A stretch of DNA of 63,249 nt from Eubacteriaceae bacterium. GTDB lineage: Bacteria; Bacillota; Clostridia; Eubacteriales; Eubacteriaceae. A program made the position numbers and the translations under genes. A model generated the notes under the pieces. That model worked only from the letters and a program-made list of their open reading frames with translations. It was not told the origin of the DNA and ran no database searches. Below are positions 10,288 to 49,560 of the stretch, piece after piece; position 1 is the first letter of the stretch; each line of letters begins with the position of its first letter. Where the stretch lies: positions 1 through 63,249 of the forward strand of contig JASGLP010000010.1 of the NCBI GenBank assembly GCA_030156895.1. Reading direction: 5' to 3'.

Positions 10288-12318
10288 ATGGATAAAGATA
10301 GAGAGAATAAAATCGATTCCCGGCTAGAAAATTTGAATCTGGATCTCTTAGTGGCAAAACGCAGCCGTTTAAAACCATGGCGGGAGGCTTTAACGATGGC
10401 TGCTATTTATTTGTTGATCGGTGGCTTATGGATTCTTTTATCGGATAAAATTGTGACATTCATTTTCATTGATCCCGAGCAGTTGAAAATTGTCCAACTC
10501 TATAAAGGCTGGTTTTATGTACTGGCAACGGCCCTTATCTTCTTTTGTATCTTTAAAAAAACGCTGGATCTGTATGCCCGCTCAGTTGACTACTGTATCG
10601 ACAGTTATGATGCTCTTTCCCAGGCCAATGATGAGCTGCTTATCATTAATGAAGACTTACGCATTGAGAAAGAACTGTCCAACCAGTTTTTTATGGAGGC
10701 TGCCTCGATCATCATTATTTTTGATAAGGACGAAAAAATCACCCACTATAACCCCTTTGCCGAAAAAGTTTTTGGTTTTAGGCGGGATGAGGCGGTAGGT
10801 GAAATGGCTTATAATTTATTGCGTTCCAACCAGCCCATAAAACGGATGCGGGAAATGTTTGATGATATTATCAATGGCGAAAACCTGAATGACAATGAAC
10901 TGCAAATGCTTTGTAAAGATGGTTCCTATAAAACGATTCTATGGAATAATAATTACCTGCATGATAAGGATGGCAATGTAGCTGGTCTGGTTTCGATTGG
11001 AACGGATATTACTGAACGGCGTCAGATGGAAGAAAGGCTTGAGCATATTGCCTACTATGACACCTTTCTGGAAATTCCCAACCGAACCTATTTAAATATC
11101 GCCATGCAGGAAGCGATCGAAGCAAATAAGGAGTTTGCCGTTGTCAATCTGGATTTGGATAACTTTAGACATATTAATGAGAGTATGGGTCATAGGGTAG
11201 GGGATCAATTTATTGCCACGGTTGCAGAAGTCTTAAAGGGACTGACCAGAAAACAGGATCTGATTGCACGTTTAAGTGTGGATCAGTTTGCCTTCTTGTT
11301 TTTTGGGGAAGATCAGGAAGACCTGATGATCTGGCTTGAATGTGTGATGTCAAGAATTCGTTGCCCCTGGCAGTTGAATGGTCAGCGGATTTATGTGACC
11401 TGTAGCGTAGGAATTGCCCTCTTCCCCCAGGATGGCGACAATGTGACAACCCTGATGCAGAATTCCGATATTGCCTTGTATACCCGGAAAGAACTGGGCA
11501 AAGATGGTTTCAATTTCTTTAAGCCGGAGATGTATGAACGGACTTTGAAGACCATTGAGATGGGTAACGAGTTGAAAGTGGCGGTTGCTAATGAGGAGTT
11601 TATCCTTTATTATCAACCCCAGTTTGAATTATCAAGCGGCAGGCTTTTGGGCTTTGAGGCGCTGATTCGCTGGAACCACCCCCAAAAAGGATTTATTTCG
11701 CCGGGCGAATTTATACCCTTATCCGAAAAAACCGGGCATATTGTGCCCATCAGCGAGTGGGTTTTAAAAGAGGCCATCAGACAGAGACGGTCTTGGGAAG
11801 AGAAGGGCTATCAGCCCCTCAAGGTTGCCGTCAACCTGTCGGGTTATACCTTCACCGAAGCATCGGTTTTTGAGCGGATTTGTAAGATTTTAGATGAGAT
11901 GGCGGTAAAGCCGGATGAGATTGAAATTGAAATTACTGAAACAGCCGTCATGATGGAACTGGATGCAGCCAAAGAAGCGCTGACAAAACTAAAGCAAAAG
12001 GGTTTGACTGTGGCTATGGACGATTTTGGAACGGGCTATTCATCCCTTAATTATCTACAGATTCTGCCCATCGATGTGCTTAAAATTGATCAGACCTTTA
12101 TTCAGAATATTCGTTCTCAAAAAGACGAAACGATCTACAAAACGTTGGTGGAACTGGCCCATGCCATCGGTATTACCGTAGTGGCAGAAGGGATTGAAAC
12201 AGCGCAACAAGAGGCCTTTCTGATTCAAAACCAGTGCGATATTGGCCAGGGCTATTATCTGGGGCGGCCGGTGCCAGCTTCGGAAGTCGAAGATTTTTTG
12301 TTAAAGCAAGTAAATTAA
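10288..12318 (+). CDS. Membrane PAS-GGDEF-EAL protein, probable c-di-GMP phosphodiesterase
   Basis: The N-terminus has two hydrophobic segments (about residues 35-55 and 72-92). A PAS domain follows (about 135-250, ending in TDITERRQMEE), then a GGDEF domain (about 250-410) and an EAL domain (about 425-670). The GGDEF signature reads LSVDQF, so cyclase activity is unlikely and the domain may only bind GTP. The EAL domain keeps FEALIRW, EITETAVM, MDDFGTGYSSL, LKIDQ and VVAEGIE, so cyclic-di-GMP hydrolysis is likely. It is a single-gene unit with GAGGT upstream. It ends directly against a dispersed repeat. A PilB with an MshEN-like domain and a c-di-GMP riboswitch lie 50 kb away in the same window. 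Confidence 0.92.
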   Translation: MDKDRENKIDSRLENLNLDLLVAKRSRLKPWREALTMAAIYLLIGGLWILLSDKIVTFIFIDPEQLKIVQLYKGWFYVLATALIFFCIFKKTLDLYARSVDYCIDSYDALSQANDELLIINEDLRIEKELSNQFFMEAASIIIIFDKDEKITHYNPFAEKVFGFRRDEAVGEMAYNLLRSNQPIKRMREMFDDIINGENLNDNELQMLCKDGSYKTILWNNNYLHDKDGNVAGLVSIGTDITERRQMEERLEHIAYYDTFLEIPNRTYLNIAMQEAIEANKEFAVVNLDLDNFRHINESMGHRVGDQFIATVAEVLKGLTRKQDLIARLSVDQFAFLFFGEDQEDLMIWLECVMSRIRCPWQLNGQRIYVTCSVGIALFPQDGDNVTTLMQNSDIALYTRKELGKDGFNFFKPEMYERTLKTIEMGNELKVAVANEEFILYYQPQFELSSGRLLGFEALIRWNHPQKGFISPGEFIPLSEKTGHIVPISEWVLKEAIRQRRSWEEKGYQPLKVAVNLSGYTFTEASVFERICKILDEMAVKPDEIEIEITETAVMMELDAAKEALTKLKQKGLTVAMDDFGTGYSSLNYLQILPIDVLKIDQTFIQNIRSQKDETIYKTLVELAHAIGITVVAEGIETAQQEAFLIQNQCDIGQGYYLGRPVPASEVEDFLLKQVN

Positions 12319-12326
12319 GCCGCTTT

Positions 12327-12507
12327 AGACTGAAGACAAAGTTAATTTTATCTAGCTGAGCACCGACAATTGGCTTTTCAGCTGTCTGCCTCGGGGCGAA
12401 CAGTTGCTCAGAAATGCTGTTTATTAGCACTTCCAAATTGGGCAACTGTACGCATCCGCGCGCAGACTGCGAAATCCAATTGGTCGGTGCGGGATTTGTC
12501 TACAAAA
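12327..12507 (+). repeat. Dispersed nested-hairpin element, copy A
   Basis: This is the forward-oriented copy of a family of about 180 bp. It begins AGACTGAAGAC and ends near GTCTAC. The stems are GCACCGAC(A)ATTGG pairing with CCAATTGGTCGGTGC, GTCTGC pairing with GCAGAC, and ACAGTTGC pairing with GCAACTGT, all nested. TTAAGCCGCTT occurs on the left (12315-12325, overlapping the stop of the phosphodiesterase gene) and again on the right (12519-12529) inside a full terminator hairpin. The flanking genes are convergent. Confidence 0.9.
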
Positions 12508-12535
12508 AGAAGCGGCTCTTAAGCCGCTTCTTTTC
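12508..12535 (+). terminator. Terminator hairpin at the right edge of repeat copy A
   Basis: A 10-bp stem (AGAAGCGGCT with AGCCGCTTCT) has a CTTA loop and is followed by TTTT. Its 3' half is duplicated left of the element. A second GC hairpin, GCCGGGTTTTGCCCGGC, follows at about 12537-12553. Confidence 0.8.
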
Positions 12536-12577
12536 TGCCGGGTTTTGCCCGGCTATATTTGTATTGAGGTTATGGGC

Positions 12578-12985
12578 TTATAAAATGGCCAAACCAGCTT
12601 TTGCAACGGTCATGTCTTCTTCAACGCTGCCGCCGCTGACTCCAATTCCGCCAATGATTTCGCCATCCATTATAATGGGAAAACCACCACCGAAGACAAC
12701 CATTCTGCCTTTGTCGCAGCTTGCCAGACCAAACAGGGAGCCGGCTTCTTTAGCAACATCAGCGAACTGATCCGTACTGCCTTTTAAGGCTGCAGCTGTA
12801 TAAGCTTTGTTGGTAGCGATATCAATGCTGGCCAGCAGGGAATCTTCCATTCGGTTAAAGAGTACAGGATTACCGTGTTTGTCACAGATAGCGATTACCA
12901 TCGGGACATCGATTTCAATTGCTTTTACAGCCGCCGCGTCGGCCATTTTTTTGGCCAGATCCAATAATTTTCCAGTTGTCGTCAT
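12578..12985 (-). CDS. GlcG/HbpS family protein (DUF336)
   Basis: This 135-residue protein belongs to the GlcG/HbpS/PduO-C fold. It shows the family core VPMVIAICDKHGNPVLFNRM and the glycine-rich GGGFPIIMDGEIIGGIGVSGG. Members bind heme or corrinoid, or accompany diol/glycol metabolism enzymes. It is downstream of, and on the same strand as, the iron alcohol dehydrogenase with a gap of 43 bp, so the two probably form an operon. GGAGG precedes the ATG. A role as an accessory or cofactor-binding protein for the dehydrogenase pathway is inferred from position only. Confidence 0.85.
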   Translation of the reverse strand: MTTTGKLLDLAKKMADAAAVKAIEIDVPMVIAICDKHGNPVLFNRMEDSLLASIDIATNKAYTAAALKGSTDQFADVAKEAGSLFGLASCDKGRMVVFGGGFPIIMDGEIIGGIGVSGGSVEEDMTVAKAGLAIL

Positions 12986-13028
12986 GATTTTCCTCCAAAA
13001 ATTTTTATTTATCCTCTAAAGCAGCTCC

Positions 13029-14177
13029 TTAAAAAGCAGCCGCGTAGATGGCGATCACATCGTCTTTAGATGGGCATTTTGGATTGCCGCCGGTGCAGAT
13101 ATCGGCCAGCGCCAGATCAGCCAGTTCGCTGAAATCTTCTTTTTTAACGCCGATTTCTTCCAGACCGGAAGGAATTCCCACATCTTGAGACAAGGTTTTG
13201 ATGGCTTCAATTGCTAAGCCGTTAATATCTTCCGCTTTAACCCCAGTCAGATCAACGCCCATGGCCTGAGCAACAGCTGCCAGACGATCACCAACCGCAT
13301 CGGCATTATAAGCCACAACGTGAGGCAGAAGCACAGCATTGCAAACACCATGCGGCAGATCATAGAAACCGCCCAACTGATGAGCCATCGAGTGAACAAT
13401 ACCTAAACCACCGTTTGAGAATCCCATTCCGGTGACAAACTGTCCGTAAGCCATGCCATCACGGGCATCAATGTCTTCGCCGTTTTCAACAGCAGCACGC
13501 AGACTGTCAGAAATAGCTTTAATGGCTTCCAGGTTAAAGAGGTCAGTAAAAGCAGAAGCGCCGGCAGTTGTATAGCCTTCAATGGCGTGGGTAAGGGCAT
13601 CCATACCGGTTGCCGCAGTTAATGATTTTGGCATTTTTACCATCAGGTTAGGGTCATTAACGGCCACGGTTGCCAGGCAGTTAGGGTCAACAATAACCAT
13701 TTTCAGTTTGCGTTCTTCGTCCGTGATAACGTAATTGATAGTCGCTTCACTGGCGGTTCCGGCCGTTGTGTTGATGGCAACAATAGGCAGTGATTTGTTG
13801 GCAGTTTTACCAACGCCTTCGTAGTCGCGCAGATCCCCCGGGTTGGTTGCCAGAATGCCGATGCCTTTAGCAGTATCTTGAGGTGATCCGCCGCCAATAC
13901 TGACGATAAAGTCGCACTCGTTTTCCTGCAAAGCGGCCAGACCGGCGTTAACATTGGTGACAGTTGGATTAGGTTTTACATCTGAGAAAATTGCGTAAGG
14001 AACTTGAGCCTTATCAAGAACATCGAGAACATCTTGAACAATACCGGCTTCGATGAGCACTTTGTCGGTGACAACCAGCGCTTTTTTAACGTTCATCCGT
14101 TTGATTTCTGGTGCCATTAGTTCGATTGCACCAGGTTCCATAATAACGACAGGGGGGAAATAATAAGTTCTTGCCAT
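13029..14177 (-). CDS. Iron-containing alcohol dehydrogenase (propanediol/methanol dehydrogenase type)
   Basis: This is a group III Fe-dependent alcohol dehydrogenase of 382 residues that interconverts alcohols and aldehydes with NAD(H). The nucleotide-binding GGGSPQDTAKG is near residues 92-102. The metal ligands fit Asp and His in TGMDALTHAIEGY, His in HSMAHQLGG, and His in DLPHGVCNA. I chose the ATG at 14177, preceded by GGAGG; a TTG five codons upstream overlaps that binding site. Substrate cannot be read from sequence; it resembles the 1,3-propanediol/ethanol type. The divergently spaced operators and the upstream TetR gene suggest substrate-linked control. Confidence 0.92.
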   Translation of the reverse strand: MARTYYFPPVVIMEPGAIELMAPEIKRMNVKKALVVTDKVLIEAGIVQDVLDVLDKAQVPYAIFSDVKPNPTVTNVNAGLAALQENECDFIVSIGGGSPQDTAKGIGILATNPGDLRDYEGVGKTANKSLPIVAINTTAGTASEATINYVITDEERKLKMVIVDPNCLATVAVNDPNLMVKMPKSLTAATGMDALTHAIEGYTTAGASAFTDLFNLEAIKAISDSLRAAVENGEDIDARDGMAYGQFVTGMGFSNGGLGIVHSMAHQLGGFYDLPHGVCNAVLLPHVVAYNADAVGDRLAAVAQAMGVDLTGVKAEDINGLAIEAIKTLSQDVGIPSGLEEIGVKKEDFSELADLALADICTGGNPKCPSKDDVIAIYAAAF

Positions 14178-14228
14178 TGAAATTACCTCCAAAAATTTGC
14201 AGCTGTAAACAGTTGCATAACTGTCTTT

Positions 14229-14308
14229 ATTTTATCAATCTTGCGGCAGCTTTCAAGTGACAGTATCGTAATAATGTCAAAATAGTGACATATAACTATA
14301 GGTGTCAC
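14229..14308 (-). promoter_or_regulatory. Promoter with twin TetR-type operators ahead of the alcohol dehydrogenase
   Basis: Reading leftward, a promoter TTGAAA (14256-14251) and TAAAAT (14234-14229) has a 16-bp spacer. Just upstream are two palindromes of identical design: GTGACA-N12-TGTCA at 14257-14279 and GTGACA-N12-TGTCAC at 14285-14308. Their centres are about 28 bp apart. Because both lie upstream of the -35 box, an activating role is possible. The architecture resembles, as I recall it, the operator of DhaS, a TetR-family activator. Confidence 0.7.
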
Positions 14309-14311
14309 TTT

Positions 14312-14860
14312 TTACAGCAAAAGAAGATAGGGCTTGAGCTTTTCAGGAAGCGCATCGATTAGAAGTTTGGCAAAGTCGTTGGGATCCATAACCATTCCAT
14401 CTAAAACCCATTTGTAAGTCATATCCATAGAGCCCTGACAGTACATATCCAAAAGGAAAAGATCATCATCAGCTACAGGCTTGCCGGTTTTCTTAATGAT
14501 CAGATCAGTATAAAAGTTGGTAATCAGTTTCAGATCATAATCGTAAATGGAATTGCAGTCACTGGATTTAAAAGCCGCAGTAAAAAAAGCTTTTTCATTG
14601 CGAACGAAGGTAAATTTGCGGGTCAAACCTTCTTCAAGGGTTAGGCTGACACCCATCTGTTTGATGGACTGCTGTGCCAGTTTATCAAAATACCAGTTGA
14701 CCAGATGATATTTATCCTGAAAATAACGATAAAATGTTTGCCTTGTCAGTTCACCGTTATCAACGATCTCTTTGACCGTGATTTTATCCAATGGCTTATT
14801 GACCATCAGCGCTTTAATACTTTTTGCCAGCTTTTCTTTTGTACGATCATTAATATCCAT
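14312..14860 (-). CDS. TetR-family regulator, DhaS-like
   Basis: This 182-residue regulator has an N-terminal helix-turn-helix (about residues 25-50, ITVKEIVDNGELTRQTFYRYF) and a C-terminal ligand domain of the TetR_C_8/DhaS type ending DALPEKLKPYLLLL. It lies directly upstream of the iron alcohol dehydrogenase on the same strand, with two matching palindromic operators between them. Regulation of the dehydrogenase/GlcG pair is therefore likely. The family includes the dihydroxyacetone-responsive activator DhaS of lactococci, so activation is as plausible as repression. The signal molecule is unknown. Confidence 0.85.
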   Translation of the reverse strand: MDINDRTKEKLAKSIKALMVNKPLDKITVKEIVDNGELTRQTFYRYFQDKYHLVNWYFDKLAQQSIKQMGVSLTLEEGLTRKFTFVRNEKAFFTAAFKSSDCNSIYDYDLKLITNFYTDLIIKKTGKPVADDDLFLLDMYCQGSMDMTYKWVLDGMVMDPNDFAKLLIDALPEKLKPYLLLL

Positions 14861-15057
14861 TGAAATTCCCCATGTTAATCTAAATGCAAGGATGCATAGT
14901 TCTATATTATCGGGCTAAGTAATCGATGTCAATGAAATATTTTGACGGTTCGGATAAATTATTTGCGAGCTTTGTTTAGAGATCATTTAATGCGAAAATA
15001 AGTTTCGGAAATTTTGAAACATGATATTAAATCAGTGTTAAATATTAGTCGAAACAA

Positions 15058-15112
15058 TTGACAGTAAAAAAGTTATGAGTATAATTGATAGTAAGGAGTG
15101 AGTGTTTACTCC
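15058..15112 (+). promoter_or_regulatory. Promoter and operator of the TetR-chemotaxis operon
   Basis: TTGACA (15058-15063), 16 bp, and TATAAT (15080-15085) form a near-perfect promoter. An inverted repeat GGAGT-N8-ACTCC (15095-15112) covers the likely transcription start and resembles a TetR autorepressor site. Confidence 0.7.
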
Positions 15113-15133
15113 TATCGAAAGGAATGAAAAAAA

Positions 15134-15721
15134 TTGGAAAAATCATTAGTTCATCGCAGAGAAAGTATTATTGTCTCAACCATTGAAGTTTTAAATCGGG
15201 TGGGGCTGCAAAATCTTTCAACGAAACTGATTGCCAGACAGGAAGGGGTATCGGAAGGTACGCTTTTCAGGCATTTTGAAAGTAAAACGCAAATACTGGC
15301 AGCCGTGATCGATCAGTTCGGACAGTTTGATAATGCGATTATTGAGACCTGCGCCCAAAAGAAATTGTCTCCGGTTGCTAGCCTTCGTTATTTCTTTTCG
15401 GCTTACGCTGAATATTATGAAAATTATCCGGAAATCACCGTGGTTATGCAGCTCTATGACAGTTTATTAAATGAAGCTGGCCTAGCTGATAAGATTCGGA
15501 CAATTATTCATAAAAGAGAAGACTTTATTGTCACCATGATAAAAAGCGGTCAGGCGTGCGGCGTCTTTTCAGAGACATTAAAGCCCGCCCGAATGGCAGA
15601 GCTCTTTATTGGTGGCAACAAGGAGATTTGCCTGAAATGGCGAATGGAGGATTATAACTTTTCGTTAAAGGAACGTGCGCTGAAATTGTTTGAGATCCTG
15701 ATTGCGGTGTTGGAAATGTAA
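15134..15721 (+). CDS. TetR/AcrR-family regulator, first gene of a chemotaxis operon
   Basis: This 195-residue protein has the TetR helix-turn-helix near residues 28-50 (LIARQEGVSEGTLFRHFESK). The rest is the variable ligand-binding part. The start is TTG, preceded by AAAGGA; no in-frame ATG is better placed. A GGAGT/ACTCC palindrome between promoter and start suggests autoregulation. The next gene, cheA, starts 22 bp after the stop with no terminator between. A TetR regulator leading cheA-cheW-mcp is uncommon and implies that the whole sensory module responds to a small ligand. Confidence 0.85.
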   Translation: MEKSLVHRRESIIVSTIEVLNRVGLQNLSTKLIARQEGVSEGTLFRHFESKTQILAAVIDQFGQFDNAIIETCAQKKLSPVASLRYFFSAYAEYYENYPEITVVMQLYDSLLNEAGLADKIRTIIHKREDFIVTMIKSGQACGVFSETLKPARMAELFIGGNKEICLKWRMEDYNFSLKERALKLFEILIAVLEM

Positions 15722-15743
15722 ATAATTGAAAGGGGGAGATAAT

Positions 15744-17804
15744 GTGACTGAAGACTTTAAAAATGATCCGATGCTGGAGATGTTTCTTTGTGAAACGGAT
15801 CAACAGCTGGAACAAATGGAAGAGATTGTTATGAATATGGAAGATTCTGATGACCTGACAACGGATGCCGTTCACGAAATATTTAGGATTATGCATACGC
15901 TAAAGAGTTCATCGGCGATGATGATGCTGAATAATATTTCGACCGTGGCCCACCGAACGGAAGATCTCTTTTATTTCATTCGAGAGGAAAAGCCGGAAAA
16001 AGTGGAGATCTCGCCCTTGTCGGATCTGATTTTTAGCAGTCTTGATTTTATGAAAGCAGAGCTTGAGAAGATCAAAGCCGGTGAAGAAGCTGATGGTCAG
16101 CCGGATGGCCTGATTGACCAGATTACTGCGCATCTGGAAAGGCTGAAACAGTTAAACAATGCCGAAACATTTTTGAAACCGGATAATAAAGAAGCTGAAA
16201 AACGCTTTTATATCAGCTCGGATAAAAAGGTTCAGAAGCTGGAAATCAACCACTTTACGGCCAATGTTTTTTTTGAAGAAAATTGTGGTATGGAAAACAT
16301 CCGAGCTTTTGCGATTGTCCATCAGCTGAAAGAAAAGTCGGAATCCTTTACGACCGACCCGGAAGATGTTATCAATGAAGCGGAAAGCGCTGATAAAATC
16401 CGTCAACAAGGCTTTAAGATTCGCTTGAAAACGCGACTATCAGACGATGAAATCCGGAAATTTCTGGAAGGATCAGCAGCTGTTGATCGGGTCGAGTTAG
16501 AGGCACTTGTCACCGAAAGTTCCGAAGAAAATGTTGTTAGTACTTTAACTCCGGAAGCACCCATTCGGATGCCGGAATTGCAAAAGCCTTCAACTCGAAA
16601 TCGAACAGCAGGTGGTTCAGGTGCAAGTAACGGGGGGATCTATGTTAGTGTGGAAAAATTGGATCAATTGATGAATCTGATGGGAGAAATGGTGATTTCT
16701 GAATCGATGGTTACACAAAATCCTGATCTTGAAGGATTGGTTTTGGATAACTTTAGCAAGTCAGCCAGACAATTAAGAAAGATCACCAATGAGATTCAGG
16801 ATATGGTCATGGCAATCAGAATGGTGCCATTGGGTCCCACCTTTCACAAGATGCATCGAATTGTTCGGGATATCAGCAAGAAAATGGGTAAGGAAATCAA
16901 TCTGAACATTATCGGTGAAGAAACAGAGGTTGATAAAAATATTATTGATCAGATTGGCGATCCACTGATGCATATTGTCAGAAATGCGGCCGATCATGGT
17001 ATCGAAACCTGTGAGGAACGACTGGCATGTGGTAAAGAAAAAACCGGAACCATTACCCTGGAGGCCTGCAACGCTGGCTCGGATGTTTTGATTATCATCC
17101 GTGATGATGGCAAAGGCCTTAAACGAGAAGGGATTCTGAATAAAGCCATTGAGAACGGATTGATCGATGAAATGAATCGGGAGATGAGTGACCAGGAGGT
17201 TTTTAAACTGATCTTTTTACCGGGGTTTTCAACCAAGGAAGTTGTGACTGAATTTTCTGGTCGGGGTGTCGGTATGGATGTAGTGGCGACGAATATCGAA
17301 GCAATTGGCGGTTCGATTCTGATGGAAAGTCAGGAAGGGAAAGGTTCAATTTTTACACTGAAAATCCCCTTAACGCTGGCGATCATCGAAGGAATGAATG
17401 TGCGGGTTGGCAATTCCCGTTATACGTTGCCTATTACCAGGATTAAGGAATCCTTTATCCCGCAAAAGGAGGAGGTTTTTGCGAACCCTAATCATCAGGA
17501 AATGATTATGATCCGTGGGGAATGTTATCCGATTTTAAGACTACATGAGTATTATCTGGTTAAAAATGCTAAAAGCAATATTGAGGATGGCATTTTAATG
17601 ATGGTGGAAGGCGAAAATAAAACAGTTTGCCTTCTGGTGGATGAACTTCTGGGCGAACAGCAAGTGGTGGTTAAAACCCTGCCTAAATATATCAGACGGA
17701 TGAAAAAAATACCTGGACTGGCTGGCTGCACCCTGTTGGGAAATGGCGGAATAAGCCTGATTTTAGATATTGACGGCTTTATTTCACAGAGCCGATTAAA
17801 ATGA
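15744..17804 (+). CDS. cheA: Chemotaxis histidine kinase CheA
   Basis: The protein is about 686 residues from the GTG at 15744, which has GGGGGAG 6 nt upstream; an upstream TTG would consume that site. An Hpt domain comes first with the phospho-accepting His in IMHTLKSSSAMM (about residue 50). A central variable region (about 150-270) is P2-like. The dimerisation region starts near YVSVEKLDQLMNLMGEM. The kinase core has HIVRNAADHGIE (N box), IRDDGKG (G1), LPGFSTK, and SGRGVGMDVV (G2). A C-terminal CheW-like domain runs from about residue 540. It phosphorylates a CheY-like regulator in the receptor array; no cheY is in the window. Confidence 0.95.
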   Translation: MTEDFKNDPMLEMFLCETDQQLEQMEEIVMNMEDSDDLTTDAVHEIFRIMHTLKSSSAMMMLNNISTVAHRTEDLFYFIREEKPEKVEISPLSDLIFSSLDFMKAELEKIKAGEEADGQPDGLIDQITAHLERLKQLNNAETFLKPDNKEAEKRFYISSDKKVQKLEINHFTANVFFEENCGMENIRAFAIVHQLKEKSESFTTDPEDVINEAESADKIRQQGFKIRLKTRLSDDEIRKFLEGSAAVDRVELEALVTESSEENVVSTLTPEAPIRMPELQKPSTRNRTAGGSGASNGGIYVSVEKLDQLMNLMGEMVISESMVTQNPDLEGLVLDNFSKSARQLRKITNEIQDMVMAIRMVPLGPTFHKMHRIVRDISKKMGKEINLNIIGEETEVDKNIIDQIGDPLMHIVRNAADHGIETCEERLACGKEKTGTITLEACNAGSDVLIIIRDDGKGLKREGILNKAIENGLIDEMNREMSDQEVFKLIFLPGFSTKEVVTEFSGRGVGMDVVATNIEAIGGSILMESQEGKGSIFTLKIPLTLAIIEGMNVRVGNSRYTLPITRIKESFIPQKEEVFANPNHQEMIMIRGECYPILRLHEYYLVKNAKSNIEDGILMMVEGENKTVCLLVDELLGEQQVVVKTLPKYIRRMKKIPGLAGCTLLGNGGISLILDIDGFISQSRLK

Positions 17805-17816
17805 TAAGGAGGGCTT

Positions 17817-18314
17817 ATGGATCAGATAAATAGTGATTTGGAATATGAAGACGACATTGAAGACGATCTTGAGGAATGGGTTGAACAGAAATTTTTGACC
17901 TTTCCCCTGGAAAATGAGATTTATGCCCTTACAGTGGATGTGGTGACGGAAATTATTGGGATTCAGGAAATTACTGAAGTCCCAGAACTGCCTGAATATG
18001 TTAAAGGGATTATCAACCTGCGCGGTCAGATTGTGCCAGTCATCGATCTGCGTCTCAAGTTTGAAAAAATGTCTAAAGCCTATGATGAGAAAACCTGTAT
18101 CATCGTAATTGAAGAAGCTGATATATCTCTGGGGCTAATTGTTGACGCGGTGGCGGAAGTTGTGGATATTCCCGACACGCTGATGGTCGATTATCCCCAT
18201 GTAGAAGATGCCAATCAGTTTATTACGGGAATTGGCAATGTGGGAAATCAGATAAAATTAATGATTGACTATAAAAAACTGATTGATGATTCATTTGAAC
18301 AAAACTTTGAATAA
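17817..18314 (+). CDS. cheW: CheW coupling protein
   Basis: This 165-residue single CheW domain shows LTFPLENEIYALTVDVVTEI, the conserved ELPEYVKGIINLRGQIVPVIDLR, and a late VDAVAEVVDIP segment. It links receptors to CheA. It carries an acidic N-terminal extension of about 25 residues (YEDDIEDDLEEW). Start: ATG with AAGGAGG, 12 bp after cheA. The next gene is a receptor, so the set encodes one self-contained sensory complex. Confidence 0.95.
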   Translation: MDQINSDLEYEDDIEDDLEEWVEQKFLTFPLENEIYALTVDVVTEIIGIQEITEVPELPEYVKGIINLRGQIVPVIDLRLKFEKMSKAYDEKTCIIVIEEADISLGLIVDAVAEVVDIPDTLMVDYPHVEDANQFITGIGNVGNQIKLMIDYKKLIDDSFEQNFE

Positions 18315-38715: not shown

Positions 38716-38721
38716 TAGAAA

Positions 38722-38944
38722 AGCGGTAAACTGTTACCGCTCCAGTGCGTAGACAAACCCCGCACCGACCAATTGGATTTCGTAGGCTGCTGCGGATTCG
38801 TACAGTTGCCCAATTAGAATAATCCAATTTAAGGTATTTTTAGCAACTGTTCGCCCCGATGCAGCCAACTGAAAAGCCAATTGTCGGTGCTCAGATGTTA
38901 ATATTAACTTTGTCTTCAGTATGAAGCGGTAAGCAAGTACCGCT
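38722..38944 (-). repeat. Dispersed nested-hairpin element, copy B, with flanking hairpins
   Basis: The element itself spans about 38742-38922, in reverse orientation. It is bounded by two similar hairpins: AGCGGTAA-ACTG-TTACCGCT (38722-38741) and AGCGGTA-AGCAAG-TACCGCT (38925-38944), the second followed by a T-run. The middle stem is GGCTGC/GCAGCC, a paired change relative to the other copies. The flanking genes are convergent and end within about 20 bp of the hairpins. Confidence 0.9.
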
Positions 38945-38960
38945 TTTTTCTAAAACTTTT

Positions 38961-41769: not shown

Positions 41770-42255
41770 TCAGAAAATTTCCGCCGCTTTTTCCGCCATT
41801 CTTTGCCCGTAGGTCTGGAAAGTATCATTGTAGCTTTCCAGGGCATCAGATACTGCTACCGGCCCCAGATGAATGACGGGTTTTCCCTTGGCGCCACCGC
41901 CGGAATAGGTTAGCATGCCCATGACCATCATATGATCCAGCATCAGACGAATACCCAGCTCGCCGCCGCCATGCACGTAATCGACAGTGGCAAAAGCACC
42001 GCCCAGTTTGCCGGGAAGGTTTAATTTTCGCGATGATTTTTCCAGGAATGCTTTAATATCAGTGCAAACATTGGCCATATAGATTGGTGAGCCAAGGATG
42101 ATACACTTGCTTTCCTGAGCCCATTCTTCGTCAATGGCATCAATCGAAAAAGCTTTGGCCTTGACGCCTTCAACCTTTTCCATCCCTTTTACAATTTCCT
42201 CGGCCATTTGTTTGGTATGCCCGGTTTTTGAATAATACAAAACGCTTGCTTTCAC
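41770..42255 (-). CDS. Flavodoxin/NAD(P)H-dependent FMN reductase family protein
   Basis: This 161-residue protein has the WrbA-like flavodoxin fold. The FMN phosphate loop is YYSKTGHTKQMAEEI (residues 7-21), and GSPIYMANVCTDIKAFLE and YVHGGGELGIRLMLDHMMVMGM form the other cofactor loops. It is a cytoplasmic electron carrier or quinone/FMN reductase. GGAGG precedes the ATG. It is divergent from the SRAP gene with a 96-bp gap. Confidence 0.87.
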   Translation of the reverse strand: MKASVLYYSKTGHTKQMAEEIVKGMEKVEGVKAKAFSIDAIDEEWAQESKCIILGSPIYMANVCTDIKAFLEKSSRKLNLPGKLGGAFATVDYVHGGGELGIRLMLDHMMVMGMLTYSGGGAKGKPVIHLGPVAVSDALESYNDTFQTYGQRMAEKAAEIF

Positions 42256-42351
42256 TTTTTACCTCCTTGAATTGTAAGAAATAGCTTACTCTTATTATAG
42301 AAGAAGGGATAGGAGAGTTCAAGAGAAAAGCCCTTCATGAAAGGAAATAAT

Positions 42352-42948
42352 ATGTGTGGTCGTTATATTTTATATACAGACAAGGACAATCAGGCCGTCA
42401 AAGCCATTGTCGAAGAGGTCAGCCATCAGTTTAACCTGGAGCTAAAAAAGGGTGATATCTATCCCAGTAATCTGGCGCCGGTCTTTGTGTCCGAGGGCGA
42501 TCAATCAAAAAAACAGCTGCGTCTGATGAAATGGGGTTATCCGGCACACTTCGGAAAGCAGAAACTTTTAATCAATGCCCGCTCGGAAACGGTGCTGGAA
42601 AAGAAAACTTTTCGCCAGGATTTTCTGGAAAGACGGTGTCTGATCCCGGCGGTAGGGTTTTACGAGTGGAACGAAAAGAAAGAAAAATTTTTATTTAGCG
42701 GATCTGATCAGCTTATTTATCTGGGTGGCTTTTATAATCTCCATCACGAGGCTGATTTCATCATCTTGACCAAAGCGCCGGTTGAGTCTGTAGCGGCTGT
42801 GCATGACCGGATGCCAGTAATCATAAAAAAGAGCCAGGCATTAACCTGGCTGAGTGATACGGATGTAGCGCTTGGGCTGATGACAGAAGATCCCGTATTT
42901 TTAAACTGCCGGAAAATGTCCGGACAAGAGCAGCTGACCTTTATATAA
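42352..42948 (+). CDS. SOS response-associated peptidase (SRAP/YedK) family protein
   Basis: This protein of about 198 residues begins MCGRY. Cys2 is the catalytic residue that, after Met removal, forms a thiazolidine crosslink with abasic sites in single-stranded DNA. For that reason I place the start at 42352 (AAGGAA upstream) and not at the ATG five codons earlier. Other family residues are Asn/Arg in INARSET, Glu in PAVGFYEWN, and His in VHDRMPVII. It protects DNA during replication stress. Its stop lies inside a palindrome bordering repeat copy C. Confidence 0.93.
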   Translation: MCGRYILYTDKDNQAVKAIVEEVSHQFNLELKKGDIYPSNLAPVFVSEGDQSKKQLRLMKWGYPAHFGKQKLLINARSETVLEKKTFRQDFLERRCLIPAVGFYEWNEKKEKFLFSGSDQLIYLGGFYNLHHEADFIILTKAPVESVAAVHDRMPVIIKKSQALTWLSDTDVALGLMTEDPVFLNCRKMSGQEQLTFI

Positions 42949-43130
42949 AGGCCAGAGCAGGTTGAAGATAAAGTATATTTAAGCACCTGAGCACCGACAA
43001 TTGGCTTTTCAGTTGTCCGCCTCGGGGCGGACAGTTGCTGGAAACCGCCTATAATTAGCGATTTCAAATCGGGCAACTGTACGAATCCGCGCGCGGACTA
43101 CGAAATCCAATTGGTCGGTGCAAAGGCCAG
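42938..43130 (+). repeat. Dispersed nested-hairpin element, copy C (right end shortened)
   Basis: The element spans about 42956-43121, in forward orientation. On the left is the 14-bp palindrome CCTTTATATAAAGG (42938-42951) that contains the SRAP stop codon. AAAGGCCAG occurs on both sides (42947-42955 and 43122-43130). The right end lacks the usual GGGTTTGTCTACA tail. The stems GTCCGC/GCGGAC and ACAGTTGC/GCAACTGT are intact. Confidence 0.88.
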
Positions 43131-43137
43131 CGATTTT

Positions 43138-46014
43138 TTAGTATTTATCAGAAGCATCATCAAGAACAATTTTTGGTTCATCCGGAAGCTCAAATGTATT
43201 GTCTTCGCTAATTTTAACAGGGCTCTTCTCGTTAGAATTATTAGCAATCTGCGAATGATTTTTGAGTTTAAAAGCTTGAACCATTTCCTTAAGCATGGCT
43301 GCCTGACTGGAAAGTTCCTGGCTGGATGCTGCGCTTTCTTCAGCGGTGGCCGAGTTGGTCTGTACCACTTGGGAAACCTGGTCAAGACCCTGGGTAACCT
43401 GGCTGATTTCGGTGGCTTGATCATTGGAGGCTTGGGCAATGCCGGCGACCAGTGCGGTGATGTTTTCAATTTCTTTTAGAATTTCCACTAGGCTTTCGGC
43501 AGTTTCGTCAGCGATTTTTGAGCCAGTATCGACCTTCTCGATTGAACCTTCGATCATCTCTGTTGTTTCCCGAGCGGCTTCGGCACTTCTGGCTGCCAGT
43601 GTCCGCACTTCTTCCGCAACTACAGCAAAGCCCTTACCGTGCTGGCCGGCTCGAGCGGCTTCAACGGCAGCATTTAAAGCCAGAATATTGGTCTGGAAGG
43701 CAATGTCATCGATAACCCGGATGATTTTTGAAATTTCCTGAGAGGAACGGTTGATATCATTCATGGCGCCAACCATGAGCTGCATTTGATCGTTGCCAGC
43801 GACAGCATGGTTTTTAACGGTTAAAGTCAGCTCATTGGCGGTATTGGCATTGACGGCATTCTGCTTGGTTTCATTGGCAACTTCACTGACTGAAGCATTT
43901 AGCTGCTCAATGGCGCTGGCCTGTTCGGTCGTTCCCTGAGATAAGGCCTGACCACCATCAGAAATCTGTCGCGAACCGATTTCCACCTGATCAGCGGCAA
44001 TGTTTATTTCCGAAAGCGTCTGACTCAGGCCACTGGTGATTTCATTGAGGGCGTGCTTAATCGCCAGAAAATCGCCCTGGTAATCAGAGGTGATCTCCGG
44101 CGTAAGATCTCCAGCCCCCACTGCCGTTAGGGTATGCGTAATTTCTTCAACGTAACGTTTTAAAGTTTGGACGGTTTGATTCATATCATTTTTGATCTGG
44201 GTAAAATCCCCCTGATAATGGCCGGTCATACCGGTATTCAGATTTCCTTGTGCTAACTCACCCAGGGTAGTGGAAGCTTCTTTCAAGGGGAGGATCACGC
44301 CGTCAAGGGTCTGGTTAAAACCATCAACGATACTGGCGTAGGCGCCTTGATGACAGCTAGCATCAGCTCGGATGCTCAATTGTCCCTGGGCGGCGGCCTG
44401 AGCCAGCATGTCGGCATCGGACACCAGGCTTTTGATTGAGCCAAGGCATCTTTCCAGTGCCTGGCCAAGGATCGTAAAGGTTTCACGGACAGCTTGAGTA
44501 TCTTCGTCGGCAGGAGCCAGTTTAATCTGAATATCAGTATCGCCATTGGCAAGGCTGGTCAGGGCGTCAGACAGATTCTGTGTTTCGAGGGCCTGGTAAT
44601 CAGCGATCTTTTGCATTCGTCGTTCAGCCTGCCTAATCGCCGTGAGATCGGTGATAATTTCTAAAGCACCGATCGCATTGCCGGACTGATCGAGAATAGG
44701 CACGCCAGTATAGGAAATATCAAGATCCATGCCAGCTTGTGGATGGGCATCGGCTTCCCGATTACAGGCTTTAAGATTTTTCATGGCCGAAAAACAAGCA
44801 CAGTCCTCGGTCTGACAGTCAGAAGTTTTAAAAAGCTTATAACAATGATTACCCCGGGCTGATCCTTTTTCGATTCCTGCGATTTGTGTTCCCAGGTCAT
44901 TCAGATAGAGGATGTTAAAATCATTGTCAATAATCATGACCGGGCTGGGCATAACGTCGATAAAGCCCACCAGCGCATCCAGCGTCTGATTGACACCGGT
45001 GACAATCTCTTTGAAACCGCCGCAAAACTGTTCAGCGTGGCCACGGGTGCGCAGTTGCCCCTGGATGGCAGCTGATGAAAGGGTGGCAGCTTCATCAATC
45101 AGGGTGCGAATAGTGGTGATGGTACGCATTAAAGCCGGGGTGATTTCGTCTCGATCATCTTTGGCGGTAAGGCAGGCAGAAACATCCCCGTTTGAAATTT
45201 GATCAATTGTGGCAATCACCACCTTCTGTAATTCGTCGGCAAATTCATCCATAGCATGGGTCATTTGTCCGATTTCGTCTGATGATTTGAGATGGACGCG
45301 CTCACCCAAGTGTCCCTGCCGCATTTCCTTGATCATGTGGGAGGCTTTGTGGAGGGGGCGACAAATCAGGACTGACAGCAGGTAACCGAAGAAAACGGCG
45401 ACAGCCATGGCTAACAGTATTATAATGAGCATTTTCTGGGTCGCATCAGCGGCGGTCTGGGCATTGCTCATTGCGGTTTGCTCGCCAGCGGTCAGGCTTA
45501 ATGCAACAAGCTCTTCAAGGACATTTTGTTCGGTTCGTGAAGCGATACCTGCAGAACCAGTTTCAGCAATCAAAGCCAGCGCTTCGTCGTCCTGATTATT
45601 TTGTGCCAAACTAATCACGGCGTCCATTTCGCGGACTGTTTCATTGTGTGCAGTTACAAAAGTTTCGAATGAACTGCGCACATTATCAGATACAATTGCA
45701 GTTTCTAAATTGGCAATTAATGCATCGATTTCTGCATAACGGGTCTTAATCCGTTCAGTATAATCATTGATTGCTTCCTGATCGCTGGCAGCAATCATAT
45801 CCCGGATATTAACTCGGGTTCGCTGGAAGGCGGTGGAAACAGAGCCAATGTCGGCAATTGGGACAGTAACACGCTGATAAAGCGCATCACTGTTTTGGCT
45901 TAAAGCCTTGAGATTGCTAATGCCAATATAGCCAACCAATCCGACCAGGGTAGCAACAATGACAAAGCTGCTAATCAGCTTTGTCCGAATTTTGAGCTTG
46001 TTTAACCAGTTCAT
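43138..46014 (-). CDS. Large methyl-accepting chemotaxis protein with Cys-rich PAS domain
   Basis: The protein has about 958 residues from the ATG at 46014 (AAGGAG upstream). Order: transmembrane helix (about 12-32), four-helix-bundle sensor, second transmembrane helix (about 192-212), HAMP, helical linker, PAS domain (about 345-470), further HAMP-like repeats, and the signalling hairpin with [20 protein letters not shown]. The PAS domain carries a cysteine cluster, [18 protein letters not shown] followed by another Cys 9 residues on, which could hold a metal or iron-sulfur centre. It may sense redox state or a ligand. No che genes adjoin it; it probably joins the array of the CheA at 15.7 kb or another one. 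Confidence 0.93.
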
Positions 46015-46210
46015 AGAATTCTCCTTATGAATAATATTTTTTCTATAGGGATACGATTGAGTTTGTTTACCCAAAATCAAAATAAGTTAACATCTTGATT
46101 AAAATTTGATAGATTCGGTAAAAATTTTCCACTTTTGTTTAGAATGCTTCGGCATGCAGGATGGGCTGGATTTGATGATATAATAACTAGAAAAACAAAT
46201 GAGGTGAATG

Positions 46211-46636
46211 ATGATAAATAAAGCCATAGCAATTGCCAATAAAGCCCATACCGGTCAGCTTGATAAAGGCGGAGAAGCTTATATTCTGCATCCTTTACGC
46301 GTGATGATGGCGCTTGATTAGGAAGAGGAAAGAATTTGTGGTCTGCTTCACGATGTGGTGGAGGATTCGACAATTACGTTTGATGATTTGCGGGCGGAAG
46401 GTTTTTCGGAATCGGTGCTGGCAGCCCTGGACTGTCTGACTAAAAAAGCGGGAGAAGATTATGAGACTTTCATTGACCGCGTTTTGACCGATGAGTTGGC
46501 CTGTCGGGTCAAGCTGGCTGATCTGGCTGACAACATGGACAGTTCAAGATTGACTGAGTTGACCGACAAGGATCGTCAGCGGCTGAAAAAATATCAGGCG
46601 GCTACAGACAAAATAAAAAACCGCTTAAAAGGCTAA
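46211..46636 (+). pseudogene. HD-domain (SpoT/MESH1-like) phosphohydrolase gene with in-frame TAG
   Basis: The reading frame starts MINKAIAIANKAHTGQLDKGG, typical of the HD hydrolase domain of SpoT/RelA-like proteins, and continues AYILHPLRVMMALD. It meets TAG at 46319-46321 and resumes without frame change as EEERICGLLHDVVEDSTIT, the HD motif itself. It ends at 46636 for a total of 141 sense codons. A single C-to-T (CAG, Gln) or similar change would explain the stop. GAGGTG precedes the start. The enzyme would cleave (p)ppGpp or a related nucleotide. Unless read through, it is inactive. Confidence 0.85.
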
Positions 46637-46850
46637 GCGGTCCAGTTTGTAGACAAACCCCGCACCGACCAATTGGATTTCGTAGTCTGCGCGCGGATTC
46701 GTACAGTTGCCCAATTTGAAAGTGCTTATTATTGACGTTTTCTAGCAACTGTTCGCCCCGAGGCAGACAATTGAAAAGCCAATTGTCGGTGCTCAGGTAT
46801 GCAATATTAACTTAGTCTTCAGTCTGAACCGCTTAAAAGGTTAAGCGGTC
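46620..46850 (-). repeat. Dispersed nested-hairpin element, copy D, with flanking hairpins
   Basis: The element spans about 46642-46827, in reverse orientation. The flanks are ACCGCTTAAAAGG-Y-TAAGCGGT hairpins at 46620-46641 (Y=C, containing the stop of the HD gene) and 46828-46849 (Y=T): 22 bp with one difference. Terminal inverted repeats read CAGTTTGTAGAC at the left and CAGACTGAAGAC inward from the right. Middle stem GTCTGC/GCAGAC. Confidence 0.92.
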
Positions 46851-47109
46851 AGCTTGGCCCCACGATTGATTCACGCTTGTGAATCAGGCCGCTTTCTTTA
46901 GGGTAATGGGGGTCATTGCTGGTAAAGCTGCGTAGGGTTAGGGGATTTTCATCAAGCAGTTTTTTGATGGCTTCCTGATTAAGCGGTTTTTTGAGGCGAA
47001 TCACAGTATCCATTTTTGACCAGCCGCTTTCGATTTTATCAATCGTGTTGCCGCCTGCTAATTCCTCTTCCAGCAAGTGGCTTAGGATAGAACTTTTTAA
47101 TTTATTCAT
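46849..47109 (-). CDS. Uncharacterised small protein coupled to a lipoprotein
   Basis: The protein has 86 residues, with no signal peptide or membrane helix. Visible sequence: MNKLKSSILSHLLEEELAGG, then KMDTVIRLKKPLNQEAIKKLLDENPLTLRSF. I do not recognise a family. Its start codon overlaps the stop of the upstream lipoprotein gene (ATGAATAA), so it is translationally coupled. Its stop is next to the right-hand hairpin of repeat copy D. Confidence 0.65.
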   Translation of the reverse strand: MNKLKSSILSHLLEEELAGGNTIDKIESGWSKMDTVIRLKKPLNQEAIKKLLDENPLTLRSFTSNDPHYPKESGLIHKRESIVGPS

Positions 47110-47608
47110 GGAGATCCTCCGTGCTGATCAGTTTTAAACTGGTCGCATAGTCGGGAACTACGAACTGGGCGCCACCACCATCTCCGGTAAACTGACCGGA
47201 TACTTCCGAGTTAACCAGACAAAGGCCGGTTGCCACCCACATGTCTTCCTGGACCTCGTAGGTGCCAAGCTGCGTCCGGTAGCCGTACTCGGGATGGGGC
47301 AGCATCTGCAGCAGATTGTAAAGCTTGATATACGAACCGCCGGCCTCTTCAACCGTCGCCTGGCTGGTATAAAAGGCGGACTGTCCGGGCAACATTCCGT
47401 AAATCTGGTCACCCTTTTTCAGCTCGGTGACATCAAAGTCATCTGCTTCATAGGTATCGCCTTCGGTCTGCAGAGTAACTGCCTGATCGATAATAGCTTG
47501 CTCCTCGCTGGTGGTCGGACTGTTTTTGTTGGTATCCGTTGTGGTGCAGGCGCAGAGGCATAAACTCAGGACGATCATGGCAGCAAGAACAAAGCGTTTT
47601 CTTTTCAT
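47102..47608 (-). CDS. Predicted lipoprotein of unknown function
   Basis: The protein has about 168 residues from the ATG at 47608, which has AAGGAG upstream. The signal peptide MKRKRFVLAAMIVLSLCLCAC ends in a lipobox with Cys near residue 21. The mature part is Thr/Asp/Glu-rich with motifs DQAVTLQTEGDTYEADDFDVTELKKGDQIYGM. It is probably anchored to the outside of the cell membrane. An upstream in-frame start would disrupt the signal peptide and is rejected. It forms an operon with the 86-residue protein. Confidence 0.8.
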   Translation of the reverse strand: MKRKRFVLAAMIVLSLCLCACTTTDTNKNSPTTSEEQAIIDQAVTLQTEGDTYEADDFDVTELKKGDQIYGMLPGQSAFYTSQATVEEAGGSYIKLYNLLQMLPHPEYGYRTQLGTYEVQEDMWVATGLCLVNSEVSGQFTGDGGGAQFVVPDYATSLKLISTEDLHE

Positions 47609-47746
47609 AAGCACTCCTTTATGGTTGAACATTAGACTTATCAGCATCAAGCGTTTACACCTGTGCTTTGGCCTTTTTGCTTGATTATAACACATAAAAG
47701 CTTAGGCGGATTTTTTTTATAAAAATATACTTTGTCTTTGGTCTGG

Positions 47747-47961
47747 GATGATTAATCATCTTATCAGACTGAAGACAAAGTATATACAAGAACCTGAGCA
47801 CCGACAATTGGCTTTTCAGTTGTCCGCCTCGGGGCGAACAGTTGCTGGAAATCGTTAATCATTAGCGATTTCAAATTGAGCAACTGTACGAATCCGCGTG
47901 TGGACTACGAAATCCAATTGTCGGAGCGGGGGTTGTTTACGCACTGAGATGATTAATCATC
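47747..47961 (+). repeat. Dispersed nested-hairpin element, copy E, with flanking palindromes
   Basis: The element spans about 47765-47947, in forward orientation. The exact 14-bp palindrome GATGATTAATCATC lies on both sides (47747-47760 and 47948-47961), and the similarity extends into CTTATCAG/CCTTTTCAG. Unlike the other copies, the neighbouring genes are tandem: the element lies upstream of the lipoprotein gene and just after the flavodoxin stop. The right-hand outer stem has one pair broken (CGGAGC). Confidence 0.9.
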
Positions 47962-47965
47962 CTTT

Positions 47966-48469
47966 TCAGATTGCGAGCTGGTTGATAGCGATAGCCATTT
48001 TTTTAACACTTTCTGGCAGCGGGCGAACCGGTGGTTGATCTTCTTTTGCTGATTTCATCATCATCTTAGCAATCAGACGATGAGAAAATTTCATTTTATC
48101 CATTCGTAATTCGCCGCCAAAGTTTTGGATACAGCCGGCATGATTTAAAAGTGCTTCCGGAAAAGCGTTTTTATAAAAAGACTCAATGGCTTCAAGGTCT
48201 TTATCGGCGGTTGCGCAGGAAATAAATAAACCGAGATTTTTTTCTTGCAGCTCTTTTTCATGGCTGCTGCAAAAAGCCTTGATTTTTTTCTGAATCTGCC
48301 CCATATAAATGGAACCGCCAATCAGTACAGTGTCGTAGGCAGAAAGATCCAGGGGCACTTGCTTGTCGATATTAAGTATGGCGATTTCGCCAGATAAGAG
48401 TTTTCCAAGTTTTTGAACGCAATCTTCGGTGTAACCGCAGTTGCTGGCATATAAAATAAGTGTTTTCAT
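47966..48469 (-). CDS. Flavodoxin-domain protein (HemG-like)
   Basis: This 167-residue flavodoxin_5-type protein has the phosphate-binding loop LYASNCGYTEDCVQKL (residues 5-20), TVLIGGSIYMGQIQKKIKAF and FISCATADKDLE. The family includes protoporphyrinogen oxidase HemG and stand-alone flavodoxins. The conserved Thr of the loop is replaced in part (SNCGYT). It is an electron carrier; its partner is unknown. AAGGAAA precedes the ATG. Confidence 0.83.
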   Translation of the reverse strand: MKTLILYASNCGYTEDCVQKLGKLLSGEIAILNIDKQVPLDLSAYDTVLIGGSIYMGQIQKKIKAFCSSHEKELQEKNLGLFISCATADKDLEAIESFYKNAFPEALLNHAGCIQNFGGELRMDKMKFSHRLIAKMMMKSAKEDQPPVRPLPESVKKMAIAINQLAI

Positions 48470-48637
48470 CAGGGTTTCCTTTCAAAATTTGATAGCGTGA
48501 ACGTGGCCAATATGGACTGATGATCGGGCCTTTGCCAGGTGTTGTTGACCAGACCTAAGCAGTCGGCCTGGATGCTTTAAAAATCTGGCGCATAATTATC
48601 AGTCAGAAGAACTAATGAATTGTGGTGATCTTTTAAA

Positions 48638-49024
48638 TCACTGGCTAAGGGCGTTTTCCATGGCTTTTAAATAGGCTTTACTGGTGACGGTAGCACCGCT
48701 GACGACATCAACATCGGTGTTTTGCTTGGCCATCACCGCATTAATTAGTTCCTGAGTCACCTCGGGCTTCTCAAATTTAACGGTTTGCGTCACTTCAATA
48801 TCGGTGATCTGATGATTGCTGACGGTTAATGTAAGAGCATTGCTGAAACGGCCGGACTCATACTGACCGTTATAGCTACCATCAGCAAGTTGCGTAAGAT
48901 CAACAGGATTAATCGAAAGCTTAGCGCCTTCTTCCAGTCCTCTTGTAATATAAAAGATGCCAGCACCACCGGCCAGAATAATGAGGCCAAACACAATTAG
49001 AATAATCAGCAGAATTTTTTTCAT
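48638..49024 (-). CDS. Membrane-anchored FMN-binding domain protein
   Basis: This 128-residue protein has one N-terminal membrane helix (residues 4-28) and an extracytoplasmic FMN_bind domain. Near the end, VDVVSGATVTSKAYLKAMENAL carries the SGAT motif at which FMN can be attached covalently to Thr by ApbE-type flavin transferases. It probably takes part in electron transfer at the outer face of the membrane. AAGGAAAT precedes the ATG. No ApbE gene is in the window. Confidence 0.85.
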   Translation of the reverse strand: MKKILLIILIVFGLIILAGGAGIFYITRGLEEGAKLSINPVDLTQLADGSYNGQYESGRFSNALTLTVSNHQITDIEVTQTVKFEKPEVTQELINAVMAKQNTDVDVVSGATVTSKAYLKAMENALSQ

Positions 49025-49177
49025 TGTAATTTCCTTTTCTAAAAAGGATTGTCAAGTAAAAGTTGTGAAAAGCCTCAAAGTATTTGAGCGATGATTAAAT
49101 ATCGAATCAATCAGCCTAAAGCATTGATTTTTCCTTGCAAAAACAATAAAATAAAAAGAAAAGGTTAGGTGGATAGA

Positions 49178-49327
49178 ATGAAAATAAGCAAGGAAGATAA
49201 AATAAGAATTCTGTTTGATGCCATTGATGGGGTAATAGCCGTTCCCTATCATCTTGAAGATCAGATGAAGGAAGTGCTGCGAAATGCCCTGCGAACCATC
49301 GAAAGAGAAGAAGAAAACAGGGCATAA
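49178..49327 (+). CDS. Small hypothetical protein
   Basis: This 49-residue protein is predicted helical: MKISKEDKIRILFDAIDGVI followed by AVPYHLEDQMKEVLRNALRTIE. AGGTGGA precedes the ATG. Its stop is immediately followed by the left flanking hairpin of repeat copy F, which would act as its terminator. I recognise no family. The regular codon pattern and good binding site support a real gene. Confidence 0.65.
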   Translation: MKISKEDKIRILFDAIDGVIAVPYHLEDQMKEVLRNALRTIEREEENRA

Positions 49328-49329
49328 AA

Positions 49330-49560
49330 AACACCGGTAAAACCGGCGGTTGCAGTGTGTAGACAAACCCCGCACCGACCAATTGGATTTCGCTGTCCGC
49401 GCGCGGATTCGTACAGTTGCCTAATTTGAAAGCTGTAATTATTTGCTTTTTACCAGCAACTGTTCGCCCCGAGGCGGACAGTTGAAAAGCCAATTGTCGG
49501 TGCTCAGGTGTTAAATTGACTATGTCTTCAGTTTGAAACCACCGGTAAAACCGGTGGTTG
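49330..49560 (-). repeat. Dispersed nested-hairpin element, copy F, with flanking hairpins
   Basis: The element spans about 49353-49535, in reverse orientation. The flanks are AACACCGGTAAAACCGGCGGTTG (3 nt short of a full match) written in two parts: CACCGGT-AAA-ACCGGCG at 49332-49348 and CCACCGGT-AAA-ACCGGTGG at 49539-49557. Middle stem CTGTCCGC/GCGGACAG. The flanking genes are convergent. Confidence 0.9.

Follow-up and report, generated by a model that had tools for sequence, protein, structure and literature searches.

Insertion sequences (ISs) of the IS1182 family and the small elements that depend on them include the closest described counterparts of the element treated here. MITEPye1 of Paracoccus yeei, a miniature inverted-repeat transposable element (MITE) of 159 bp, is gene-less, intergenic and foldable and has 18-bp IS1182-like ends; in the accessible part of that report, its authors proposed that IS1182 mobilizes it in trans (PMC11578231). 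In staphylococci, IS1272 and TnSha1, which belong to the IS1182 family, were described in the available portions of two papers as inserting into terminator and other hairpins (PMC4923244, PMC5678879). The second of these, in the part that was accessible, proposed, as pathway b, that a stem-loop is duplicated as a whole if it is extruded and the transposon ends join at its 5′ foot (PMC5678879). According to the available text of a further paper, the target may or may not be duplicated or deleted when IS1182-related elements act (PMC12056078). We analyzed a 63,249-bp stretch of DNA (the window), contig JASGLP010000010.1 (C74) in the draft genome of a Eubacteriaceae bacterium (GCA_030156895.1, here G000; 3.0 Mb, 101 contigs, 85% complete). 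It contains six copies of a short dispersed element. An earlier note had read them as a non-autonomous mobile element or a structured RNA family, and had proposed searching Rfam, looking for a relative in which the same ends enclose a transposase, and comparing loci for empty sites. We consider it very probable that the element is a terminator-nesting MITE that is cross-mobilized by IS1182 transposases.

The six copies were found where the earlier note had placed them, three on each strand, and their limits were refined (Table 1). Those with both ends (n = 5) are 181-184 bp long. The element is short, has terminal inverted repeats and carries no transposase gene, as MITEs do. The inverted repeats described before were recovered as the consensus ends CAGACTGAAGACAAAG and, reversed, CAGTGTGTAGACAAAC. 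The sequences said to be shared by all copies fared less well. GAGCACCGACAATTGGC is exact in six of six, but AGACTGAAGAC and GGGTTTGTCTAC are exact in only three each, being replaced elsewhere by variants or, in copy 3, missing. The nested hairpin is real: copy 4 folds at -63.5 kcal/mol, compared with a shuffle mean of -42.4 (z = -5.4), and its opposite strand also folds better than shuffles (z = -4.1).

Two features go beyond the earlier note: a duplicated host repeat brackets the copies (see below), and the family is genome-wide, occupying a hundred or more places in G000. The left-arm pattern GCACCGACAATTGGCTTTT had 136 matches with up to three mismatches, compared with one for the reversed control. 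Among the 100 matches listed, 90 had no mismatch and 10 had one, so at least 100 are near-exact; some weak matches may come from the second arm of a copy already counted. The 17-mer of the left end, with up to two mismatches, matched 73 times, and its reversed form never did. We extracted 111 pattern matches with their flanks, 100 of which had the left-arm inner motif. Both ends were recognizable by a loose match in 69, and in 67 once two elements counted on both strands were removed. A blastn search of phage and plasmid collections with copy 4 gave no match.

L090, L092 and L100 have internal deletions, the left arm joining the right end directly near GCCTCGGGG or GCCTCAGGG. A second palindromic module, GCGAAGGCAACGAGCCAA...TTGGCGACTGCCCGCGAGCC, lies at an identical position within the right arm of L062, L064, L073, L076 and L154 and has cousins in L088 and L139; we read these as nested small elements.

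The copies stand between duplicated hairpins. With the 99th percentile of 4,422 mismatched flank pairs as threshold, the left flank recurs on the right in 56 of the 67 two-ended copies, including the five such copies in the window; 49 of the 67 exceed the 99.9th percentile. In a relative, G009, 16 of 20 copies (the best-scoring of 92 matches) were above the 99th percentile of mismatched flank pairs. The median repeat is 20.5 bp, and it adjoins the element at the left in 49 and at the right in 45 of 58 rows, two double counts included. It varies from locus to locus and is mostly a terminator-like palindrome with a T-tract or A-tract outside. Among 56 loci, there was a T-tract on the right only in 14, an A-tract on the left only in 15, both in 25 and neither in 2. 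The label "palindrome" is based on our reading of the repeats as much as on the self-complementarity score, which exceeded the 99th percentile of shuffled flanks in only 18 of 69 right and 20 of 69 left flanks. The element is flanked by a target-site duplication, as is typical of MITEs. In the IS1272 type of insertion the stem-loop is deleted without duplication, whereas here it is duplicated. The ISfinder tables give very variable repeat lengths for IS1182.

In L079 and similar loci, the two flanking hairpins differ at several positions and each is still palindromic, as if both had been kept as hairpins after insertion. At copy 5, an inverted left-end-like sequence, CAGACCAAAGACAAAGT (47729-47745), adjoins the low-side palindrome, as if the remnant of another element shared that hairpin.

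Relatives that carry a transposase between the same ends were found, and they are IS1182 elements. We distinguished two end types: T1, the left end as in the G000 MITE, and T2, CAGACTGTCAAAAAAG ... TTCTTTGACAGTCTG. In a genus-wide search, a left end reading CAGACTGAAGACAAAGG (one mismatch) occurred eight times in G017 and seven times in G013, where it opens a longer multi-copy element. Several of these matches are at contig ends, which is expected because the repeat is longer than the reads. Seven of the eight left ends fetched (L140-L147) continue alike into an apparent frame starting MLTKREQ, and in G013 the fragments beside T1 ends align with residues 2-38 (49% identity) and 380-440 (50-51%) of the IS1182 transposase. 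The right end of the T1 element is GGGTTTGTCTTCGCTCTG, followed by palindromes, and the right end of the MITE is within five mismatches of it in 51 of the 67 G000 copies, which had been preselected by their ends. In G013, the palindrome of three of four left contig ends matches one of six right ends (e.g. AGGAACCCCACAGGGGTTCCT); such paired contig ends probably represent one insertion. The T2 element is complete in G012 and G007, with 1488 bp in each and duplicated palindromes at both sides. The G012 protein, the only one submitted to the NCBIfam scan, belongs to the IS1182 family (NF033551, 362.6 bits vs a cut-off of 270). The T2 copy in G007 has an internal stop, and that in G014 is split in two pieces. 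On plasmids, the IS1182 elements of Sutcliffiella (NZ_CP082921.1) and Peribacillus (NZ_CP133765.1) have the ends CAGNNYGTAGACAAA and lie within exact hairpin duplications of 30 bp and 24 bp, respectively.

A DUF772 protein of G000 (L120) was considered as a helper and rejected; no such ends were present within four mismatches in its 3.2-kb locus. L148 (G004:C115, 4855-4902) is a 48-bp palindrome that consists of two back-to-back T1 ends separated only by a short loop, and one hairpin adjoins it. We read it as a minimal relative of the element.

Empty sites were sought at two window loci, those of copies 2 and 3, in the nearest relative, G014, and the element was absent from both. The copy 2 site is a single hairpin between genes of 78% and 84% identity. 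The copy 3 site, between genes of 70% and 75% identity, is a short intergene without the element and with no clear hairpin. With the transposase-bearing relatives, these sites and the lack of an Rfam family, the proposal of a non-autonomous mobile element gained support.

The element loci look like the stem-loop duplication outcome set out in the accessible part of the TnSha1 work (PMC5678879). By analogy, and judging from the sequences of the ends, an IS1182 transposase would mobilize the element in trans. It would recognize the ends CAGACTGAAGACAAAG... and ...GGGTTTGTCTACACACTG and bring the element to a palindrome that can be extruded as a hairpin. In practice, such targets are mostly terminator-like. 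On each strand, a 3′ end of the element may then be joined to the 5′ foot of the stem-loop, and repair would copy the whole stem-loop, leaving the element between two hairpins, the outer side often retaining a T- or A-tract. Insertion just past stop codons might be near-harmless, which would allow the high copy number. We infer both this joining chemistry and the neutrality for the host.

Several observations weigh against a MITE moved by IS1182. No IS1182 transposase of the matching type was found in G000, a draft 85% complete, and a PF13751 profile search of it gave no match. The T1 IS was seen solely as contig-end fragments and a relic, and one of its left ends, L141, diverges from the other seven within 60 bases. 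Exact identity between IS and MITE covers only about 10-16 bases per end. Of the four plasmid IS1182 elements examined, that of Exiguobacterium has unlike hairpins left and right, and that of Thermocaproicibacter extends to the very start of its record. Nor is hairpin duplication a constant feature of IS1182: in the accessible text of the reports cited above, IS1272 and TnSha1 delete the hairpin and MITEPye1 has 4-bp repeats. In G000 itself, 11 of the 67 two-ended copies showed no significant flank duplication, 42 of the 111 extracted matches lacked two recognizable ends, and the left-arm motif was absent from at least 11 of the 111, which might represent chance matches, remnants or reverse arms. 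The conservation of the inner hairpin, described below, is also left unexplained by a mobile element alone.

A covariance model of this core had between 9 and 138 matches in each of the 19 genomes of the genus (up to 150 candidates were scored, and one palindrome may have been counted twice, once per strand). By blastn alone, it was found in 16 of the 19 and in none of 42 genomes outside the genus. In a class-wide sample with stricter filters, four of 291 genomes matched, three of the genus and G026. The window copies score 137-151 bits when read on the element strand, compared with 48-56 bits on the opposite strand, so the asymmetry of the core is also conserved. In the core stem, 98.7% of cells are paired and 80 are changed on both sides; neither value was reached in 500 shuffles, and slid-alignment controls gave 25-38% paired. 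This set comprised 47 chosen sequences, 30 of the 87 extracted from G000 and 17 of the 18 extracted from relatives, and the alignment leaves out L052, a misoriented row, and L035. Among 62 tips of 34 nt (from 73 cut out of the 87 cores), no clear covariation was found, and the tip was rejected as a conserved stem. No Rfam family matched the window at the gathering score. When copy 4 with its flank was searched at E values up to 5, the single match was the sub-threshold trpB motif (27.2 bits vs a cut-off of 59).

Ends and core part company across species. The core type GTACCGACAATTGTT... has the T2 left end in 17 of the 20 G009 loci and the T1 end in none, and it has T1-like ends in three G016 loci (L323-L325) chosen for a T1-pattern or blastn match. 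In G008, four elements chosen by the T1 pattern combine T1-like left ends with another outer stem and a tip that is very short, and the outer stem of G006 differs again. In Eubacterium aggregans (L313), which lies in the same bacterial family, only the innermost motif is in common, within a longer repeat and under a different outer stem; L313 contains the L250 segment of G026. It was the one credible relative among 41 stretches in an inner-motif scan of named genomes beyond the main type. The other 40, 20 of them from Streptomyces, were taken as chance from their taxonomy and single occurrence. One half of the inner motif had a single one-mismatch match in three of six IS sequences or fragments, and the other half was in none of the six.

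These data bear on the proposal that the element is primarily a structured RNA, a hairpin at mRNA 3′ ends that is retained because it serves the host, for example in mRNA stability or protein binding, and that owes only its spread to mobility. The covarying stem, the presence of the core throughout the genus and the inner motif shared with Eubacterium aggregans under another outer stem all speak for it, and the covarying core leaves some weight to the structured RNA family suggested in the earlier note. However, the occupied terminators are met in both orientations with balanced polarity, which disfavors a strand-specific role in host mRNA; the tip does not covary, Rfam has no match, and two other measures were also reached by shuffles ("pairs changed on both sides" in 21/500, "further pair types" in 476/500). 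Covariation is no proof of RNA, because template switching can also match up the arms of a palindrome. On balance, we regard a primarily structured RNA as rather unlikely. A role of the core in transposition, or DNA binding of a factor, are serious options. It is also possible, and we put this forward only tentatively, that the inner hairpin, with its asymmetric motif (GC[A/C]TC..GGCGAACAG ... CTGTNCGA), is an old functional module, selected as a structured RNA or a protein site, that outlived changes of tip, outer stem and transposon ends across the genus and into Eubacterium aggregans, IS1182 ends having been acquired more than once. If so, a hundred genes would receive one and the same module at their 3′ ends from MITEs lying in terminators.

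Two further explanations concern the flanking palindromes. They might be the element's own long, variable outer stem rather than a target duplication, since the flanks tend to be palindromic and are thus complementary to each other. This is very improbable, because they match within a locus but vary among loci, the site orthologous to copy 2 in G014 has just one hairpin, and the same kind of flanks is seen at autonomous IS1182 elements whose interiors are unrelated. Placement by a Cas1-like enzyme, a casposase or a REP/RAYT (HUH) enzyme, which also use palindromes, seems scarcely credible to us: duplication of a whole palindrome resembles the duplication of repeats in clustered regularly interspaced short palindromic repeats (CRISPR), and the window has a CRISPR array, but the ends match those of IS1182 elements that carry a transposase gene, and no other enzyme is needed.

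Each window copy starts 7-30 bp past the stop of an open reading frame (ORF). In a scan of nine of the ten ORFs flanking the copies, 46355-46636 and 47102-47695 had no Pfam match.

Table 1. Element copies in the window and the repeats at their sides
Feature	Position	Strand	Details
Copy 1, low-side repeat	12315-12325		TTAAGCCGCTT
MITE copy 1	12326-12509	+	184 bp; directly past the stop of the PAS-GGDEF-EAL gene 10288-12318
Copy 1, high-side hairpin	12510-12529		AAGCGGCTCTTAAGCCGCTT
Copy 2, low-side hairpin	38722-38742		
MITE copy 2	38743-38923	-	181 bp; convergent neighbors, FMN reductase and papain-like protease
Copy 2, high-side hairpin	38924-38945		
MITE copy 3	42958-43121	+	without right end; convergent neighbors, SRAP and chemotaxis receptor
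Copy 4, low-side hairpin	46619-46642		24 bp; repeat score 43
MITE copy 4	46643-46826	-	184 bp; preceded by ORF 46355-46636
Copy 4, high-side hairpin	46827-46850		24 bp
Copy 5, low-side palindrome	47747-47760		GATGATTAATCATC
MITE copy 5	47765-47946	+	182 bp; 3′ of the flavodoxin gene 47966-48469 (-)
Copy 5, high-side palindrome	47948-47961		GATGATTAATCATC
Copy 6, low-side hairpin	49328-49352		25 bp
MITE copy 6	49353-49535	-	183 bp; 3′ of the DUF3089 gene 49565-50563 (-)
Copy 6, high-side hairpin	49536-49560		25 bp

The window opens, at the contig start, with the CRISPR array (1-4710; about 71 repeats, TCGCGCCCCACGCGGGGCGTGTGGATTGAAAC, spaced mostly 65-68 bp apart). Near its other end is a c-di-GMP-I-GGC riboswitch (62838-62922; RF03167, 62.9 bits vs a cut-off of 59).

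As a terminator-nesting MITE, the element provides many natural examples of one IS1182 outcome, in which the target stem-loop is duplicated in its entirety. It is suggestive of a safe-haven strategy, whereby a parasite reads the structure of a terminator and not its sequence, and leaves a hairpin on each side. With an interior conserved across species in a bacterial MITE, the functionality of MITE cores becomes testable. Rather than an unknown kind of object, the element represents a new MITE family in the IS1182 group, and the structure that it targets is clear. The hairpin-duplication outcome is little described in the available literature. Neither this element nor any MITE that duplicates a whole terminator hairpin was described in the literature searched, which included few subscription journals and did not extend to ISfinder. 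The earlier statement that no named family has these features holds for the element, for which no name was found; its probable mobilizer, in contrast, is the named IS1182 family, and the accessible part of one report already describes MITEPye1.

Compared with known systems, the MITE shares with the IS1182 elements of Sutcliffiella, Peribacillus, G012, G007 and G013 the ends, CAGNNYGTAGACAAA or CAGACTGTCAAA/CAGACTGAAGAC, and a palindromic target of which the whole stem-loop is duplicated. Unlike it, these ISs are 1.49-1.75 kb long where complete and carry a transposase; the MITE lacks a transposase gene, and its conserved core is unrelated. MITEPye1 has 4-bp direct repeats and one to three copies per chromosome, and the accessible part of its report gives no hairpin target (PMC11578231), whereas the present element duplicates a palindrome of about 20 bp at a hundred or more places. 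IS1272 and TnSha1, in the available portions of the papers on them, delete or replace the stem-loop without target duplication, and here the stem-loop is duplicated. Like ERIC, Correia and BOX/RUP/SPRITE elements, as the accessible text of one source presents them (PMC10969869), the element is short, palindromic, mostly intergenic and present in tens to hundreds of copies. In contrast to them, both a likely mobilizing family and the target structure can be named for it.

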